Positions 32,766 through 40,416 of a stretch of DNA of 64,000 nucleotides are shown here, piece by piece. The first letter of the stretch is position 1. Each line of letters starts with the position of its first letter. The notes beneath the pieces are model-generated. The model worked only from the letters and a program-made list of their open reading frames with translations. It did no database searches and was not told the DNA's origin. This DNA comes from Spirochaetaceae bacterium. GTDB taxonomy: Bacteria; Spirochaetota; Spirochaetia; Treponematales; Rectinemataceae. The stretch lies in assembly GCA_025355995.1 (NCBI GenBank), contig JANXYQ010000014.1, positions 1 to 64,000 of the forward strand, read 5' to 3'. The position numbers and the translations under genes were made by a program.

Positions 32766-32811
32766 GATGTTGCTGTATATTATCCCTGAGGCTAAGAGGA
32801 GGCTAAGGGAT

Positions 32812-35004
32812 ATGAAGTGGCGAATCGTTCCGATTGCGGTGCTCTCGGGGGCTCTAGCGCTTTCCGCGTACTCACAGGCTCAGGCGAAGCCAAGCCAGGC
32901 TGGGCCAAAGGCCGGAGAGACGCCCCTCAATCTGTCCCCCCTATGGCTGCAATCCAGCCCGAGTCTAGGCCTTCCCCTCGGCGACAGCACGACCTATTTC
33001 AGCCTCGGCGGCGGCGGATCGATCGGGGCCGAGTATCGCATCCCCGGCTTCCCCCTCGCCCTCGCGAGGGCGGGCATCGAATACGGCTACTTCCCCACGC
33101 CGGCCCAGGATTCGGTCTCTTTTACGACCGCCGACCTCGGCCTGGGCCTCGCCTATAACTTCATTCCCAATTTCGGCGTCAAGCTCTACGCCGACGGCGG
33201 GGCCACCTATGGTTTCTTCAACTCTAACGCCGAGGGCTATTGGAACGCCTACGCCAAGGCCGGCCTCGATCTCTTCGCCTCCTTCCCCCCGCGGCTGATG
33301 GTCAGCCTGGGCGGCTCCTTCCAGGACCAGTTCGGCGTGTACACGGGAGTCGCCGCCACCCTCGGCGTCTCCGTCGGACTGGGCAAGCCCATCACCGTCC
33401 AGAGCTTCAAGCCCGCCGCGCCGAAGCCCCTCATCAACAAGCCCCAGCCCCTCAAGTCCACCAATGCCTCCGGCAAGGCCGGGACGGGCCTGGATTTCAG
33501 CAGCCTCGACATCAAGGATATCTACCCAGTCTTCTATAAATATTACGACAACCACCCCATCGGGACCGTAGTCCTCCACAACTGGGAGAAGACCCAAGTC
33601 CAGAATATAAGCGTGAGCGTTTGGATAAAGGAATTCATGAGCGACCCGAGGGATGTCCAGGGACCGGCCAAGCTCGACGCCGGCCAGGACGCCTCGATAG
33701 ACCTCTTCGCCCTCCTCAAGAAGGACGTGCTCGCCAACACCGAGGACACGAAGGTCTCCGCCAACCTGACGGTCAAGTACAGCCTTAACGGCAAGCCCAT
33801 CGTCAAGAGCTCGGTCCAGACCCTGCGCATCCTGAAGCGCAACTCCCTGACCTGGGACGACGACCGCAAGGCCGCGGCCTTCGTCACGCCCAACGATCCC
33901 ACCACCGTCAAGTTCGCCAAGAACGTCGCGTCGATGGTCAACGGAAAGGGCAACACCTTCGTCGACTCCAACATCCGCCTCGCCGCGGCCCTGCACGACG
34001 CCCTCACCCTCTATGGCCTCACCTACGCCACCGACCCGGTCGCCACCCTCAACTCCGATTCGAGGACGGTCGACTACATACAATTCCCGCAGCAGACCCT
34101 CGACTACAAGAGCGGCAAGTGCAGCGACTTCTCCGCCCTCTACGCCTCCATGTTCGAGGCCCTCGGGCTCGAGACCGCCTTCATCACCATCCCCGGCCAC
34201 ATCTACATGGCGGTGGCCCTCGGGATCAGCCCCGACGACGCCCGCGCCTCCTTCACCCACAAGGACGACCTCATCATCCAGGATAACAAGGTCTGGCTCC
34301 CGATCGAGATCACGCTGAGGGATGGCGGCTTCGTGAAAGCCTGGCAGTACGGCGCCAAGGAGTGGCGCGAGAACCTGGCGATGAAGCAGGCCGTCCTCTA
34401 CCCGATCCGGGAGGCGTGGAAGACCTACGAGCCCGTCGGCTTCGCCGCGGCCGAGACCGCCATCAAGCTCCCCGCCGACGCCAAGGTGGTCGCCGCCTTC
34501 TCCTCCGACCTCGACGCCTTCGTCAAGGGCGAGATGGGACAGCAGGAGCTGGTCCTGCAGACGGCCGTCAACAAGGCCACGACCCAGCCTAGCAAGTCCA
34601 GGGCCATCAACAGCCTGGCCGTCCTGCACTCCCGCTTCGGCCTCTACGCCCAGGCGCAGAAGGAGTTCGAGCAGGTCCTCGCCAAGGACGAGTACATGCC
34701 CGCCCTGATCAACCTCGGGAACCTCTACTACATGCAGAACGACGACGAGAAGGCGCTCGAATATTACAATCGCGCCGCCAAGAAGGCGCCCAAGAACTCG
34801 ATCGTCCTGCTCAGCGTAGCCCGTGCCAACCATGCGATGGAGAACTACTCGAGCGCCAAGAAGGCCTACGACGACCTTACGGCCGTTAACCCGGCCCTGG
34901 CCCAGCAATTCGCCTACCTCGGCCTCAGGGGCGAGGAGGCCACCCGCGCCGCGGACGTTACCGGAGTAAAGGGGATGGTGATATGGTCCGACTCAGAAAA
35001 GTAA
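32812..35004 (+). CDS. Exported outer-membrane-like protein with transglutaminase-like and TPR domains
   Basis: A 730-residue protein with a signal peptide (about 1-26, ending SAYSQAQA). Residues 45-205 have alternating strands with Tyr/Phe/Gly (YRIPGFPLALARAGIEYGYFP, LGLGLAYNFIPNFGVKLYADG cut short here), like a small outer-membrane barrel. A linker and a beta domain follow. The transglutaminase/protease-like core has Cys437 in GKCSDF, His463 in IPGHIYM and Glu499 in LPIEIT where Asp is usual. At least two TPR repeats end the chain (LINLGNLYYMQNDDEKALEYY). It overlaps the NHL lipoprotein gene by 22 bases, so the two likely act together at the cell surface. Function unknown. Confidence 0.75.
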   Translation: MKWRIVPIAVLSGALALSAYSQAQAKPSQAGPKAGETPLNLSPLWLQSSPSLGLPLGDSTTYFSLGGGGSIGAEYRIPGFPLALARAGIEYGYFPTPAQDSVSFTTADLGLGLAYNFIPNFGVKLYADGGATYGFFNSNAEGYWNAYAKAGLDLFASFPPRLMVSLGGSFQDQFGVYTGVAATLGVSVGLGKPITVQSFKPAAPKPLINKPQPLKSTNASGKAGTGLDFSSLDIKDIYPVFYKYYDNHPIGTVVLHNWEKTQVQNISVSVWIKEFMSDPRDVQGPAKLDAGQDASIDLFALLKKDVLANTEDTKVSANLTVKYSLNGKPIVKSSVQTLRILKRNSLTWDDDRKAAAFVTPNDPTTVKFAKNVASMVNGKGNTFVDSNIRLAAALHDALTLYGLTYATDPVATLNSDSRTVDYIQFPQQTLDYKSGKCSDFSALYASMFEALGLETAFITIPGHIYMAVALGISPDDARASFTHKDDLIIQDNKVWLPIEITLRDGGFVKAWQYGAKEWRENLAMKQAVLYPIREAWKTYEPVGFAAAETAIKLPADAKVVAAFSSDLDAFVKGEMGQQELVLQTAVNKATTQPSKSRAINSLAVLHSRFGLYAQAQKEFEQVLAKDEYMPALINLGNLYYMQNDDEKALEYYNRAAKKAPKNSIVLLSVARANHAMENYSSAKKAYDDLTAVNPALAQQFAYLGLRGEEATRAADVTGVKGMVIWSDSEK

Positions 35005-36944
35005 TCGCGTTAGGCGGAATAGCCGCACTGGCGCTGGCCTTCGCCGGCTGCTCAAGCCCCCTCCTTAACCGCATAAAGGAGAAGGTCGTCGACATACAGG
35101 TGAAGCAGGCGGCGGACGCTGCCGCTGCGGCCGCTGCGGCGGCCAAGGCACCCTTCGCCGCCACGAGCTACACTTTCGTGAGGCAGTGGGGGAATCCCGC
35201 GCCGCAGTATACCTTCGCGGACGTCCCGCTCGTGAAGGCGGACACCGCGGGCTTCATCTACCTGACGGATTCCAGCGCCCGCATACGGAAGTACGCCGCG
35301 TCCACGGGCGCCATCCAGAGCACGATCAGCATCTACTCCACCCAGGGCTTTTCCTCCTCGGTCACCGACATGGCCTTCGACGTGTCGGGCAACATGTACG
35401 CGATCACGAGCAACGCCAAGCAGCTCCAGAAATACAGCGTGTCGGGCAACCTGCTGTTCGATTGGGGCGGCACGACGGCCTACGGGGTCAACACGAGCCC
35501 CGCCGCCCTTTCCAGCCCCGGGGGTATCGGGGGTATAGCAGTGGACGGCTCCGGCGGAGTCTATGTGGTCGATAGCTACAATAAACGCATCCTCAAATTC
35601 GATTCGGCGGGCAATTTCGTCGTAGACTGGGGCGGATCCACGACCTACGGCAATGGCACGACCATCCCCGTGGCCGCGATGTCGAACCCGCAGGGCATAG
35701 CGATCGACTCCAACGGATACGTGTACGTGATGGACCGCGGCAACAACCGGGTCCTGGTGTTCTATCCGGTGACGACCACGGCGCCTTCGATCTACAACTA
35801 TTGGGGAGGGACGACGACCTTCAACGGCTTCGCCTTCAATCAGCCCTCCCATCTCTCGCTGAGCCCGGGCACGACCCAGTACGTCTACGTCGTGGACGGA
35901 GGCGGCACCAACAACAGCCGAGTGCTCAAGTTCACCACCTATGGGATCTACGTCGCCGCATTCGGAAGCGTGGGGACGGCGAACGGCGCCTTCACCAGCG
36001 CATCAGGCGTGGCCGTCGACACCTCGGGCTACATCTACGTCTCCGACGGTTCATACTCCAACCTAGGCTATCGAGTCCAGAAATTCGACCTGACGATTCC
36101 CTCCCCCTATTGGGTAGCCACCTGGGGAGGACCGCCCGGAGCGGGCAACGGCATCCTCGTGCAGCCCTGGGGGATCGCGCAGGACGCTTCCGGCAATACT
36201 TACGTGGCGGAAACCTTCAACGACCGCATCCAGAAATTCGACCCTGCGGGCAATTACCTGCTCCAGGCCGGCAGCACCGGATCCGGCGCGGGGCAGCTCA
36301 ACCAGCCCGTCGGCATCGCCATCGACGCTTCCGGGAATATCCTGGTGGCCGACGAATCGAACAACAGGATCCAGGTCTTCAACGCCGCCGGCGCCTTCCA
36401 GAAAACCATCGGCGCAGGCCAGCTCTCGGGCCCGATCGCGATCGTGCTGGACAGCGCCGGCGACATCTTCGTCAACGAGGCCAGCGCGGGCGACATAAAA
36501 GTCTTCGACGCCAACGGATACTACCTGCGCACGATCGGCTCCGCCGGGACGGGGGACGGCCAGTTCGGGTATATCTACGGGCTGGCCATCGACAAGGACG
36601 GGAATTTGTTCGTCTCCGACCTTTTCCAATCGCGCGTGCAGAAATTCGATGCGAGCGGCAACTTCGTCACCAAGTGGGGCACGCAGGGCACGGGCCTCAG
36701 CCAATTCCTGTACCCCATCGGCGTCGCCTGCGACAGCATCGGCAACGTCTACGTCTGCGACATGCTCAACCGGCGGATCCAGAAATTCGACGGCAACGGC
36801 ACCTACATGGCGAGCATAGGCGGGGTCGGCATAGGGGGCGGCAGCTTCGCCTGGCCGATAGGCATCGCGATCAACCCCGCGGGGCACTTGTTCGTCAGCG
36901 ATTACATGAATTTCCTGGTGCAGGAGCTGGCGCCGGTCTATTAG
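34983..36944 (+). CDS. NHL-repeat lipoprotein
   Basis: A 653-residue lipoprotein. The signal peptide ends in a lipobox, ALAFAGCSS, with Cys23 as the lipidated residue. An alanine-rich helical stalk (about 38-55) follows. The rest is a series of eight or more NHL/beta-propeller repeats of the type GIAIDxxGNxYVxDxxNxRIQKFD, enough for one six- or more-bladed propeller plus extra blades. Such propellers usually bind proteins or glycans. Several blades share the 11-mer CAGAAATTCGA in DNA, a trace of internal duplication. It overlaps the preceding barrel/transglutaminase gene by 22 bases. Confidence 0.88.
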   Translation: MVRLRKVIALGGIAALALAFAGCSSPLLNRIKEKVVDIQVKQAADAAAAAAAAAKAPFAATSYTFVRQWGNPAPQYTFADVPLVKADTAGFIYLTDSSARIRKYAASTGAIQSTISIYSTQGFSSSVTDMAFDVSGNMYAITSNAKQLQKYSVSGNLLFDWGGTTAYGVNTSPAALSSPGGIGGIAVDGSGGVYVVDSYNKRILKFDSAGNFVVDWGGSTTYGNGTTIPVAAMSNPQGIAIDSNGYVYVMDRGNNRVLVFYPVTTTAPSIYNYWGGTTTFNGFAFNQPSHLSLSPGTTQYVYVVDGGGTNNSRVLKFTTYGIYVAAFGSVGTANGAFTSASGVAVDTSGYIYVSDGSYSNLGYRVQKFDLTIPSPYWVATWGGPPGAGNGILVQPWGIAQDASGNTYVAETFNDRIQKFDPAGNYLLQAGSTGSGAGQLNQPVGIAIDASGNILVADESNNRIQVFNAAGAFQKTIGAGQLSGPIAIVLDSAGDIFVNEASAGDIKVFDANGYYLRTIGSAGTGDGQFGYIYGLAIDKDGNLFVSDLFQSRVQKFDASGNFVTKWGTQGTGLSQFLYPIGVACDSIGNVYVCDMLNRRIQKFDGNGTYMASIGGVGIGGGSFAWPIGIAINPAGHLFVSDYMNFLVQELAPVY

Positions 36945-37052: not shown

Positions 37053-38255
37053 ATGAAACGACGCATAGCCGAGAACGTGTACTGGGTGGGGAAGATCGAC
37101 TGGGAGCTCAAGAAATTCCACGGGAGCGAATACTCGACCCATAGGGGCTCGAGCTACAACTCCTACCTGGTCAAGGAAGCCAAGACCGCGCTGATAGACA
37201 CGGTCTGGCTGCCCTTCGCCAAGGAATTCGTCGACGGCCTCGAGGCAGAGGGCGAGCTCGCCGCCTTGGATTTCGTCGTCGCCAACCACGGCGAGGTCGA
37301 TCACTCAGGCGCCCTGCCCGAGCTGCTCAGGCGGAGGCCCGGGCTCCCGATCTACTGCACGGCCAACGCGGTGAAGAGCCTCAAGGGCCAGTACCACCAG
37401 GACTGGGACTTCCGCGTCGTGAAGACGGGCGACTCCGTCGACCTAGGGAACGGCAAGAAGCTGGTCTTCGTCGAGGCGCCCATGCTCCACTGGCCCGATT
37501 CCATGTTCACCTACCTCGCGGGCGGCGCCGTCCTCTTCCCGAACGACGCCTTCGGCCAGCACTACGCCTCGGAGCTCATGTTCGCCGACCTGGTCGACCA
37601 GGAAGAGCTCAAGCAGGAATGCGTCAAGTATTACGCCAACATCCTCACGCCCTTCTCCCCGATGGTCGCGAAGAAGATCGAGGAGGTCGTCGGCATGAAG
37701 CTGCCCGTCGAGGTCATAGCCCCCAGCCACGGCGTGATCTGGAGGAAGGACCCGCTCGTCATCGTGAGGCAGTACGCCGAATGGGCGGCCGACTATCGCG
37801 AGGACCGGATCTCGATACTCTACGACTCGATGTGGGACGGGACGCGCAAGCTCGCCGAGGCCATCGCCCAGGGCATCGCCCTCGAGTCGCCGGCTACCTC
37901 CGTCGTCCTCCACAACGTCGCCAAGACCGACAAGAACGACGTGATCACCGACGTATTCAGGTCGAAAGCGATACTGATGGGTTCGCCCACCGTGAACAGG
38001 GGAGTCCTGAACGCGGTGGCCGGCCTCCTCGAGGAGGTCAGGGGCCTGCGCTTCAAGGGCAAGAAGGCGGCCGCCTTCGGCTGCTACGGCTGGTCGGGCG
38101 AGTCGAACGGAATGCTCTCGGGGCTCCTCGGCGAGGCCGGCTTCGAGGTCGTCGACGAGGGCCTCAAGTGCGCCTGGGTGCCCGACTCAGAGGCGCTGGA
38201 CGCCGCGAGGGTCTACGGCCGCGCCTTCGCGCGCGGGGCTAAGGAGGGATCATGA
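37053..38255 (+). CDS. Flavodiiron protein (A-type flavoprotein)
   Basis: A 400-residue enzyme reducing O2 to water or NO to N2O in the cytosol. The beta-lactamase-like diiron domain carries HGEVDHSG, a HWPDSM block and NDAFGQH; the iron ligands His79, Glu81, Asp83 and His84 are all present. The flavodoxin domain (about residue 250 onward) has the FMN loop YDSMWDGTRKLA and MGSPTVNRGVLN. No rubredoxin domain is fused, so a separate electron donor is needed. The stop overlaps the hemerythrin start (ATGA). Confidence 0.95.
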   Translation: MKRRIAENVYWVGKIDWELKKFHGSEYSTHRGSSYNSYLVKEAKTALIDTVWLPFAKEFVDGLEAEGELAALDFVVANHGEVDHSGALPELLRRRPGLPIYCTANAVKSLKGQYHQDWDFRVVKTGDSVDLGNGKKLVFVEAPMLHWPDSMFTYLAGGAVLFPNDAFGQHYASELMFADLVDQEELKQECVKYYANILTPFSPMVAKKIEEVVGMKLPVEVIAPSHGVIWRKDPLVIVRQYAEWAADYREDRISILYDSMWDGTRKLAEAIAQGIALESPATSVVLHNVAKTDKNDVITDVFRSKAILMGSPTVNRGVLNAVAGLLEEVRGLRFKGKKAAAFGCYGWSGESNGMLSGLLGEAGFEVVDEGLKCAWVPDSEALDAARVYGRAFARGAKEGS

Positions 38256-38806
38256 GCGAGGCTATCGACGACCTGAAGCGCGAGCACGAGGCTATCCTGT
38301 TTACGATCAAGGTACTGGAGCGCATGGTCGCGCTCTCGGGCGAAGGGAAGTTGAGCGATCCCGGCGACCCCTTGGCGCTCGTCGCCTTCCTGAAGGAGTT
38401 CGCCGACAAGTGCCACCACGGGAAGGAGGAGGGAATCCTCTTCCCCGCCCTCGAGAAGGCCGGCGTCGCGAGGGAAGGCGGGCCCGTCGGCGTCATGCTC
38501 GCGGAGCACGAGCGGGGCCGGGCCCATATCCGGGCGATGGAGGCCGCGCTCGGGTCGAAGGGCGGGATCGAGAGGGAAGCCTTCGCCCGCGAGGCGAAGG
38601 GCTACGCCGCCCTCCTTCGGGCTCATATCGACAAGGAGAACTCGGTGCTCTTCCCGATGGGCGAGCGTCTCCTCGGCGCCGACGAGCTCGCGAGGGTCTA
38701 CCGGGCCTTCGAGGAGCACGAGGAGAAGGTCATAGGCGCGGGCAGGCACGAGGAATTGCACGCGATGCTGGACGATTTCGACCGGAAATACATCGCCGGA
38801 GCCTGA
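38252..38806 (+). CDS. Hemerythrin-like domain protein
   Basis: A 184-residue four-helix-bundle diiron protein. The iron-ligand pattern is visible: His in LKREHEAIL, HxxxE in CHHGKEEGILFP, His in LAEHERGR and HxxxE in AHIDKENSVLFP. It binds O2 or senses oxygen/NO. Its ATG overlaps the flavodiiron gene stop, so both are made together; the pairing suggests an O2/NO-handling unit in which hemerythrin delivers or senses the gas. That partnership is inference. Confidence 0.93.
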   Translation: MSEAIDDLKREHEAILFTIKVLERMVALSGEGKLSDPGDPLALVAFLKEFADKCHHGKEEGILFPALEKAGVAREGGPVGVMLAEHERGRAHIRAMEAALGSKGGIEREAFAREAKGYAALLRAHIDKENSVLFPMGERLLGADELARVYRAFEEHEEKVIGAGRHEELHAMLDDFDRKYIAGA

Positions 38807-38859: not shown

Positions 38860-40416
38860 ATGACGCGCGCCGCTATCCTCTGCCTTGCCCTCCTTTGTCC
38901 CGCCCTCGCCCTCGCGGCCCAGCCCGCGAGCAAGGACGCGATGACGCCGGCCGGCCGTGCCACCGGGACGACCGATCTCCTGGAAGCGGCCAAGGCCTGG
39001 GCCGGGCAGCTCGGCGAACTGGCCCCCATCGCGGGGCGGGCCCTTGCGTCGGCCGAGGGCTGGGACACCCAAGCCTTCGATTGCATGGACCTAGCCGGAT
39101 CCGGCCTGTACATGGACACGGTCGAACTAGCGCGCCGCCTCCCGGGCGAGGGCGCCGGAGGCTCGGGCTCCCGATGGCTCGTGTCCCTCTCCTTTACGAT
39201 GATGCGGATGCGGCGCGCGGACGCGGCCCAAATCACCGAGCAGCTCGTCATCGGCGTGTCCTCCGGCAACCGCTTCGCGGAGCTCAACGTGACCTTCATC
39301 GACGGTCTACCAGAAAGCCCCCTAGTCGTGCGCGGGCTAGGCGACGAACTAGCCTTCACGAGGCTCGGCCAAAACCTCGCGCCCGCGGAGGAATGGAGAC
39401 GGCCCGTCCCCGATCCCTCGGCCCCGATATCCCTCCGCTCGTATTCCACCCGGCTCTCCGACCTTCCGCCGGGAGCCGACAAGGTGGATATGACAAGCTA
39501 CATGGCGGGGGAGGCCGAGGTCGTCGTGGACCGGGTCTCCGTCGATCGGGCCAGGGGCATCATGACCATCGTCAGCGGCAAGCCCGGCAAGGGGATCATC
39601 CAGGAGGTCGGCTTCGACGACGCTGGCCGCATGGAGACCGTGACGCTCAAGCCTCGGGGCCTCGTATTCGTAAGGGAGGATCCCTCGGCCATGCTAGCCG
39701 CGCGCCCGACGAGGATGCACGCCCTCGCGTCGCGGGACGCGAAGGTCGAGACCGACTTCGAGAGCGGCCTGGCCCGGCTGGCGATGCCCGCAGCCAAGTC
39801 CTGGGCGGCTACGATCGAGCTCGAGGCTCGGGGCAGCCTCTCGCGCAGGCTCGAGGACTTCGCCGACCCCCGCGGCTGGGAATTCAGGCACGGCGCCATC
39901 CAATTCAGGTCCGGCTCCGGCCTGCCGCGCTTCAAGGGCGTCCCTCGAAGCACGCTCGAAGAGTGGACGAGACCTTCGTCCTCCCTTGAGTCCGACGCGC
40001 CGGAGATCGCCGCGGCGGCCCTCGAGGCGACATCGGGGATAGAGGACGCGAGAGGACAGGCCCTGGCCGTGACTGCCTGGGTGTACAAGAACCTGCGCTA
40101 CGATACCGGCGTCCTGGCGGTAGGCGCGCTGCGCACCCTGCAGACGTTGCGCGGCGACTGCACCGAATTCTCGGGGCTCATCGTGGCCATGCTGCGCTCC
40201 CTCGGGATGCCCGCGACGATCGTCCACGGCTTTTACTATGACCCGATCTCGGCCGCTTTCATCGGTCACGCATGGGCGATCGCCCGCGTCGGCTCGGCCT
40301 GGCTCGAGCTGGAGGGCACCTCGGGCAAGCCGACCGAAGGCTCCGGCTACCTGCCCCTGCCGCTCAAGGACAACATGAGCCTGGTCAGGCGCATCAGCGT
40401 GGCCGAAGTCAGGTAA
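38860..40416 (+). CDS. Exported transglutaminase-like protein
   Basis: A 518-residue protein with a signal peptide (about 1-20, ending LALAAQ). Residues 25-370 form a beta-rich region without a family I recognise, similar in outline to the N-terminal domain of DUF3857/transglutaminase proteins. The C-terminal core (about 385-500) has Cys434 in RGDCTEFSGL and His470 in GHAWAIA, with an acidic residue in WLELEGT as third member. It could be a protease, peptide cross-linker or inactive binding module. It follows the flavodiiron operon but has its own promoter. Confidence 0.75.
   Translation: MTRAAILCLALLCPALALAAQPASKDAMTPAGRATGTTDLLEAAKAWAGQLGELAPIAGRALASAEGWDTQAFDCMDLAGSGLYMDTVELARRLPGEGAGGSGSRWLVSLSFTMMRMRRADAAQITEQLVIGVSSGNRFAELNVTFIDGLPESPLVVRGLGDELAFTRLGQNLAPAEEWRRPVPDPSAPISLRSYSTRLSDLPPGADKVDMTSYMAGEAEVVVDRVSVDRARGIMTIVSGKPGKGIIQEVGFDDAGRMETVTLKPRGLVFVREDPSAMLAARPTRMHALASRDAKVETDFESGLARLAMPAAKSWAATIELEARGSLSRRLEDFADPRGWEFRHGAIQFRSGSGLPRFKGVPRSTLEEWTRPSSSLESDAPEIAAAALEATSGIEDARGQALAVTAWVYKNLRYDTGVLAVGALRTLQTLRGDCTEFSGLIVAMLRSLGMPATIVHGFYYDPISAAFIGHAWAIARVGSAWLELEGTSGKPTEGSGYLPLPLKDNMSLVRRISVAEVR

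Follow-up and report, generated by a model that had tools for sequence, protein, structure and literature searches.

The window analysed here consists of the first 64,000 nucleotides of contig JANXYQ010000014.1, from the genome of a Spirochaetaceae bacterium (4.5 Mb, 138 contigs; genome G000). Coordinates are window positions unless another locus is named. Two overlapping genes on the forward strand encode a transglutaminase (TG)-like protein and a lipoprotein. The first gene runs from the ATG at 32812 to 35004 (730 residues) and is preceded by a Shine-Dalgarno-like sequence, AGAGGAGG, at 32795..32804. The second gene (34983..36944, 653 residues) begins within the end of the first, its ATG at 34983 following the Shine-Dalgarno-like AAAGGGGA at 34969-34976. 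The overlap spans 22 nucleotides (34983..35004), and both genes lie where the initial annotation had placed them. Here and below, gene starts and lipoboxes were set by our own rules, without SignalP or Prodigal, and some of the genomes are fragmented and incomplete. Scans for promoters and terminators returned sites that were no commoner than in shuffled sequences.

The TG protein starts with a signal peptide (about residues 1-26). It is followed by an OmpA-like eight-strand barrel (residues 39-195, 32926..33396), an immunoglobulin (Ig)-like beta domain that is kept across the family (residues 227-340, 33490..33831), a TG-like core (residues 363-513, 33898..34350) and an array of tetratricopeptide repeats (TPRs; residues 557-705, 34480..34926). 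AlphaFold2 predicts eight antiparallel strands at residues 44-190. In structure comparison with VIA, this part is matched best by the barrels of OmpA, NspA and OprF (Z 16-18.7 over ~150 residues). The barrel-like N-terminus proposed from the sequence is, as modeled, an OmpA-type eight-strand barrel. The Transglut_core profile (PF01841, cut-off 23) scores 22.8 bits in the genome search and 19.5 bits with hmmscan; two paralogues in the same genome exceed the cut-off, with 25.9 and 23.1 bits. The Cys-His-Glu triad of the TG superfamily is present as Cys437 (34120-34122), His463 (34198-34200) and Glu499 (34306-34308). The TPRs are matched by Pfam at 4e-10 and are also visible as AlphaFold2 helices and as TPR matches in VIA and Foldseek. 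Together, the Ig-like domain and the TG core match the N-terminal part of the NCBIfam model NF058533. The mean predicted local distance difference test (pLDDT) is 58 for the TG protein and 52 for the lipoprotein, the confident parts being the barrel, the TPRs and the second propeller.

The second protein corresponds to the lipidated propeller protein described in the initial annotation. Its N-terminal signal carries LAFAGC at residues 18-23, with the lipobox FAGC predicting lipidation of Cys23. This cysteine and a helical tag behind it (residues 23-54, 35049..35144) precede two predicted NHL-type propellers. The NHL repeats are matched at 9e-49, and PF01436 reaches 161.5 bits in 7 stretches with hmmscan. 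In the AlphaFold2 model, residues 26-54 form a helix and residues 395-640 a C-terminal propeller predicted with confidence. The NHL propeller itself was rejected as the conserved partner. No orthologue was found beside the TG gene in 59 relatives, the sole exception in that search being a weak propeller match within one fused relative (G058:C210). The NHL partner is retained only at locus L037, where the TG protein is 67% identical to that of the window; other relatives have other lipoproteins. The initial annotation had named relatives in which the two genes are not neighbours as a refutation; this applies to the NHL gene, though not to a lipoprotein gene in general.

Relatives of the TG protein were matched in 40 of 59 related genomes, many of them in several copies; the weakest matches cover TPRs only. 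In the genome of the window, five copies are full-length and at least three more are fragments. A search of 296 genomes across the phylum gave matches at E below 1e-40 in 35. More than 100 regions that contain relatives were retrieved from spirochaete genomes, and the genes were located with a hidden Markov model of the core. Well-conserved core residues include G435, C437, D439, H463, W495, P497 and E499. The fusion of barrel, enzyme and TPRs is a family with several copies per genome, not a one-off. No paper describing it was found in the open-licence literature, which is weak evidence of novelty. A giant relative of 8256 residues in the same genome (G000:C6) was discarded, its open frame reflecting a 9-kb run of N.

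Under a uniform lipobox rule, a lipoprotein gene adjoins the TG gene at 63 of the 73 barrel-type loci that are not cut by contig ends, 57 times downstream and 6 times upstream. The lipoprotein gene usually overlaps the TG gene by 4-22 nucleotides or starts within 80 nucleotides of it. On inspection, lipoproteins are present in five of the ten misses (L051, L085 and L091 downstream; L099 and L100 upstream by ~460 nucleotides or more), so that the count by eye is 68 of 73. Non-barrel relatives give 4 of 23 under the same rule. Three of these four are cut at the N-terminus and so may or may not carry the barrel; setting them aside leaves 1 of 20, a case that has no tag of the kind described below. 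The difference between 63/73 and 1/20 is highly significant (Fisher p = 1.8e-9, uncorrected table). As a background, 22 of 338 control genes in the genome of the window (~6.5%) pass a similar lipobox rule. Other spirochaete families, inspected only once the idea had been formed, showed adjacency as well (L123, L128, L129, L133, L134, L135, L139). We consider it very likely that the TG protein and the lipoprotein form a dedicated partnership.

The lipobox cysteine is aligned and invariant in all 54 partner lipoproteins. The first 20 mature residues are also alike, often reading C-x-N-P-L followed by a short amphipathic stretch. With a leave-one-out profile of this tag, 38 non-redundant partners scored +3.8 on average, against -10.5 for 22 other lipoproteins of the same genome as the window (Mann-Whitney p = 7e-9). 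These controls were drawn from ~380 kb of that genome and from the window, a few being doubtful as lipoproteins, and their starts tend to be rich in Pro, Ala and Ser. Behind the tag, the partner bodies are mostly made of Big_5, Big_13, fn3, PKD and InlB-type repeats or of propellers. In 25 pairs with TG proteins more than 60% identical, the tag is 45% identical versus 29% for the body (p = 3e-5, an optimistic value because the pairs share members and are not independent). Between genomes G032 and G037, the TG proteins are 88% identical and the partner tags 85%, versus 28% for the bodies. Since Ig, fn3, PKD and propeller bodies vary while the tag and the TG protein stay, the body would be an interchangeable payload and the tag and TG protein a fixed interface. 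Recognition of the partner through the tag is probable. A Mantel test was dropped as a proof of tag co-evolution, tag and body both correlating with the TG tree, and the close-pair comparison was used instead. At locus L040 (10229-17246), one TG gene is followed by two tagged lipoproteins in succession (1196 and ~1123 residues). A single enzyme may serve two partners there; L085 and L105 look similar.

The triad is complete in 83 of 100 scorable relatives, which bears out the Cys-His-Glu core noted at first. In the other 17, the triad is gone as a whole. Fifteen of these come first in a pair of adjacent TG genes, and L104 precedes the other TG gene of its cluster; the remaining one, L109, ends at a contig edge. 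Complete second copies in tandem pairs keep the triad, and three more tandem loci fit the pattern (L128, L129 and L139). Selection has thus preserved the triad wherever one copy stands alone, an argument for catalysis, and a catalytically dead partner in tandem loci, an argument for a complex. The triad-less first copy is probably a non-catalytic subunit. Second TG genes of tandem pairs encode 1199-1659 residues (L080, L083, L092, L093, L098, L128, L129). Their long C-terminal extension after the TPRs had no Pfam match in the two that were scanned (L092 and L098). In the complete genome G041, several lipoprotein genes are located upstream, not downstream, of a pseudoenzyme-enzyme pair (L101, L103).

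In some other families, at loci L160-L166 and L137, the N-terminal barrel is of the PorV/PorQ type instead of the OmpA type. The three proteins scanned with NF033709 (cut-off 90), those of L160, L164 and L137, reach 90.8, 93.9 and 142.3 bits, respectively. In these loci, the gene immediately upstream codes for a large protein of exported type, and a Pfam scan of one such protein showed FG-GAP and Big_5 repeats. The C-termini of these upstream proteins resemble FlgD-Ig, with FlgD_ig scoring under its own cut-off. They stay below the cut-offs for type IX secretion system (T9SS) cargo, with at most 17.3 bits for TIGR04183 (cut-off 23) and 18.6 bits for TIGR04131 (cut-off 35). An SprA-like gene was found in four of six PorV-type genomes (G060, G069, G070 and G082) and not in G092 and G100, both incomplete. 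A strict link between PorV-type barrels and SprA was not upheld, SprA-like genes being also present in the OmpA-type genomes G165, G183 and G216, and the association is suggestive only. Across the phylum, SprA-like frames, mostly of ~1850-2050 residues and below the TIGR04189 cut-off, occur in 67 of 296 Spirochaetota genomes. All lie outside the Treponematales, where none was found in any genome searched. Their sequences suggest a widespread divergent T9SS in Spirochaetota. Still other relatives replace the barrel by Laminin G (L120), TPR arrays (L121) or other N-terminal regions, and have no partner. The constant part being Ig-TG-TPR, the attached N-terminal part would decide whether a separate partner is needed.

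We favor, with modest confidence, a reading in which the two genes form one module and the membrane-anchored enzyme has the specific task of maturing, displaying or holding the protein encoded next to it. A surface complex that crosslinks, processes or displays proteins had been put forward initially. This list is still fair for a barrel/enzyme/TPR protein tied to a lipoprotein, the NHL propeller not being the tied partner. The even number of strands and the signal peptide suggest an outer-membrane barrel whose two ends both lie on the periplasmic side, so that the Ig-TG-TPR part would hang into the periplasm. The partner would leave the cytoplasm through Sec, receive its lipid and travel to the outer membrane, where its membrane-proximal helical tag could be bound by the TG protein, perhaps through the TPRs. 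The TG thiol would then make a covalent change, either cleavage or transamidation, by which the lipoprotein is matured, anchored or released. Finally, the Ig, fn3 or propeller body would work at or outside the surface. The surface location and the chemistry of the system are what we infer here: display of the partner at the surface appears evenly balanced, and action of the TG catalytic site on the partner is conceivable though somewhat doubtful. Only tentatively do we extend the module to an undescribed route of spirochaete surface-protein sorting. There, a barrel-anchored TG thiol enzyme would act in a sortase-like manner on its dedicated partner via the N-terminal tag. The barrel type would fit the secretion route, OmpA-type with lipoproteins and PorV-type with FlgD-Ig, T9SS-like cargo, and pseudoenzyme-enzyme tandem pairs would belong to the same scheme.

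Several observations weigh against a dedicated enzyme-partner module. An eight-strand barrel has no polypeptide pore, which rules the protein out as the translocon. Such a small barrel not being an export channel, a general machine, a Borrelia-type LptD homologue or Bam, would do the crossing. AlphaFold2 is weak in the TG core (pLDDT 26-60, with a four-sequence alignment). The lipoprotein lies upstream or was not found at L041, L050, L056, L102 and the second gene of L104, and non-barrel relatives do without a separate partner. Between the window and L037, the tag is less identical (38%) than the body (43%). Bodies also track the TG phylogeny (Mantel r 0.29 for the body versus 0.24 for the tag), so co-inheritance explains part of the signal.

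Partner bodies are typical binding modules, and non-barrel relatives fuse modules of this type directly to Ig-TG-TPR (Laminin G in L120), with no need for a lipoprotein. The pair might thus be a stable receptor or adhesin complex that involves no processing, the body binding a ligand or a surface, the barrel-TG-TPR protein serving as its outer-membrane anchor and the TG core cutting or crosslinking not the lipoprotein but the ligand, for instance an environmental protein. However, a TG core facing the periplasm cannot reach ligands outside the cell, and ligand binding alone would hardly account for a common membrane-proximal tag. We regard such a complex as unlikely. That the two genes are mere chance neighbours, given that the family is multi-copy and that several per cent of genes encode lipoproteins, is scarcely tenable: it is contradicted by the contrast of 63/73 with 1/20, by the common overlaps of 4-22 nucleotides and by recurrence across several families.

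Two further explanations start from gene context and from a domain shared with a named family. FecR-like genes occur in 23 of the loci retrieved, in some cases as immediate neighbours of the TG gene, and a cyclase-like gene stands between the two TG genes of L104 and near L170. The pair could act as a periplasmic sensor that reports the envelope state to neighbours with FecR and CHASE2-cyclase domains. Such a role is improbable, since such neighbours are missing from most barrel-lipoprotein loci, including that of the window, and large variable Ig or propeller bodies are unusual in sensors. An anti-phage function akin to ProA would rest on the Ig-TG part at the N-terminus of NF058533 ('anti-phage protein ProA'), which is matched by 49 of 52 members. 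The window protein shares this Ig-TG stretch and is unrelated to the rest of the model. Its score is 59 bits over positions 11-238, ~230 of the 1903 positions, against a cut-off of 1500 bits along the whole model. PADLOC gave no convincing match and a literature search found no ProA paper; what is shown is a shared domain, and we judge this function very improbable. FecR-domain-like genes were noted near L104, L134, L135, L160, L165, L166, L169, L170 and others, and a CHASE2-type cyclase twice. The recurring FecR-like genes may mark a regulated envelope module.

Returning to the dedicated enzyme-partner module, the closest parallel is Slam (SLAM/SlipAM, DUF560; for example Slam1-TbpB), also a protein with an outer-membrane barrel and TPRs whose gene adjoins those of variable lipoproteins. 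A survey found 185 of 353 Slam genes (~52%) adjoining a lipobox gene, which was taken as a sign of a functional link (PMC5449769). An adjacent lipoprotein is likewise found here, as a feature of how the system may work and not of membership. In contrast, Slam has N-terminal TPRs, a predicted C-terminal 14-strand DUF560 barrel and no TG core, whereas the order is reversed here, with an N-terminal eight-strand barrel followed by Ig, TG and TPR. The DUF560 profile PF04575 was absent from Pfam scans of the window protein. It was not detected in 12 spirochaete genomes either, but a control was equally silent, so that its absence there is unproven.

The PorV-type loci recall PorV/PorQ and PorU of the T9SS, with a PorV-family barrel (L160-L166, L137) beside a large FG-GAP/Ig protein that has a FlgD-Ig-like C-terminus. 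PorU is a cysteine enzyme that acts on cargo delivered to the outer membrane, and is a separate protein of C25 type. Here, the TG fold is fused to the barrel, and the window has an OmpA-type barrel with a lipoprotein partner. LapG, a TG-like periplasmic protease, acts on the N-terminus of the adhesin LapA. Common to both would be a TG-like thiol enzyme working close to the N-terminus of a large, repeat-containing protein. However, LapG has neither barrel nor TPRs and its target is not a lipoprotein; cleavage by the window protein is putative.

The ways in which spirochaete lipoproteins reach the surface and stay there are understood only in part. In reviews, a Slam-like factor was expected to await discovery in this phylum (PMC7857515), and an LptD homologue has since been implicated in the surface localization of Borrelia lipoproteins (PMC13317210). 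This homologue, BB0838 of B. burgdorferi, bears on the same process (PMC13317210), but it is an LptD-type barrel of one general pathway, unlike the many paralogues described here, each with its own partner and enzyme domain. The family makes the question testable: it supplies concrete enzyme-partner pairs, a tag that is a candidate for recognition, and pseudoenzymes as natural controls. Should the tag serve for sorting, exported lipoproteins could also be predicted from it in genomes that have not been studied.

The window encodes a second exported TG protein at 38860-40416 (518 residues, PF01841 1.2e-16), which the initial annotation had tentatively joined to the pair in one extracytoplasmic transamidation or proteolysis system. 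This link did not hold. Likeness is confined to ~74 catalytic residues with 27% identity (hhalign probability 38), and no relative of this protein lies beside any other family locus examined. It is probably unrelated to the pair. The region adjoining the pair (37053-38806) encodes flavodiiron-type and hemerythrin-like proteins, as judged by sequence only.

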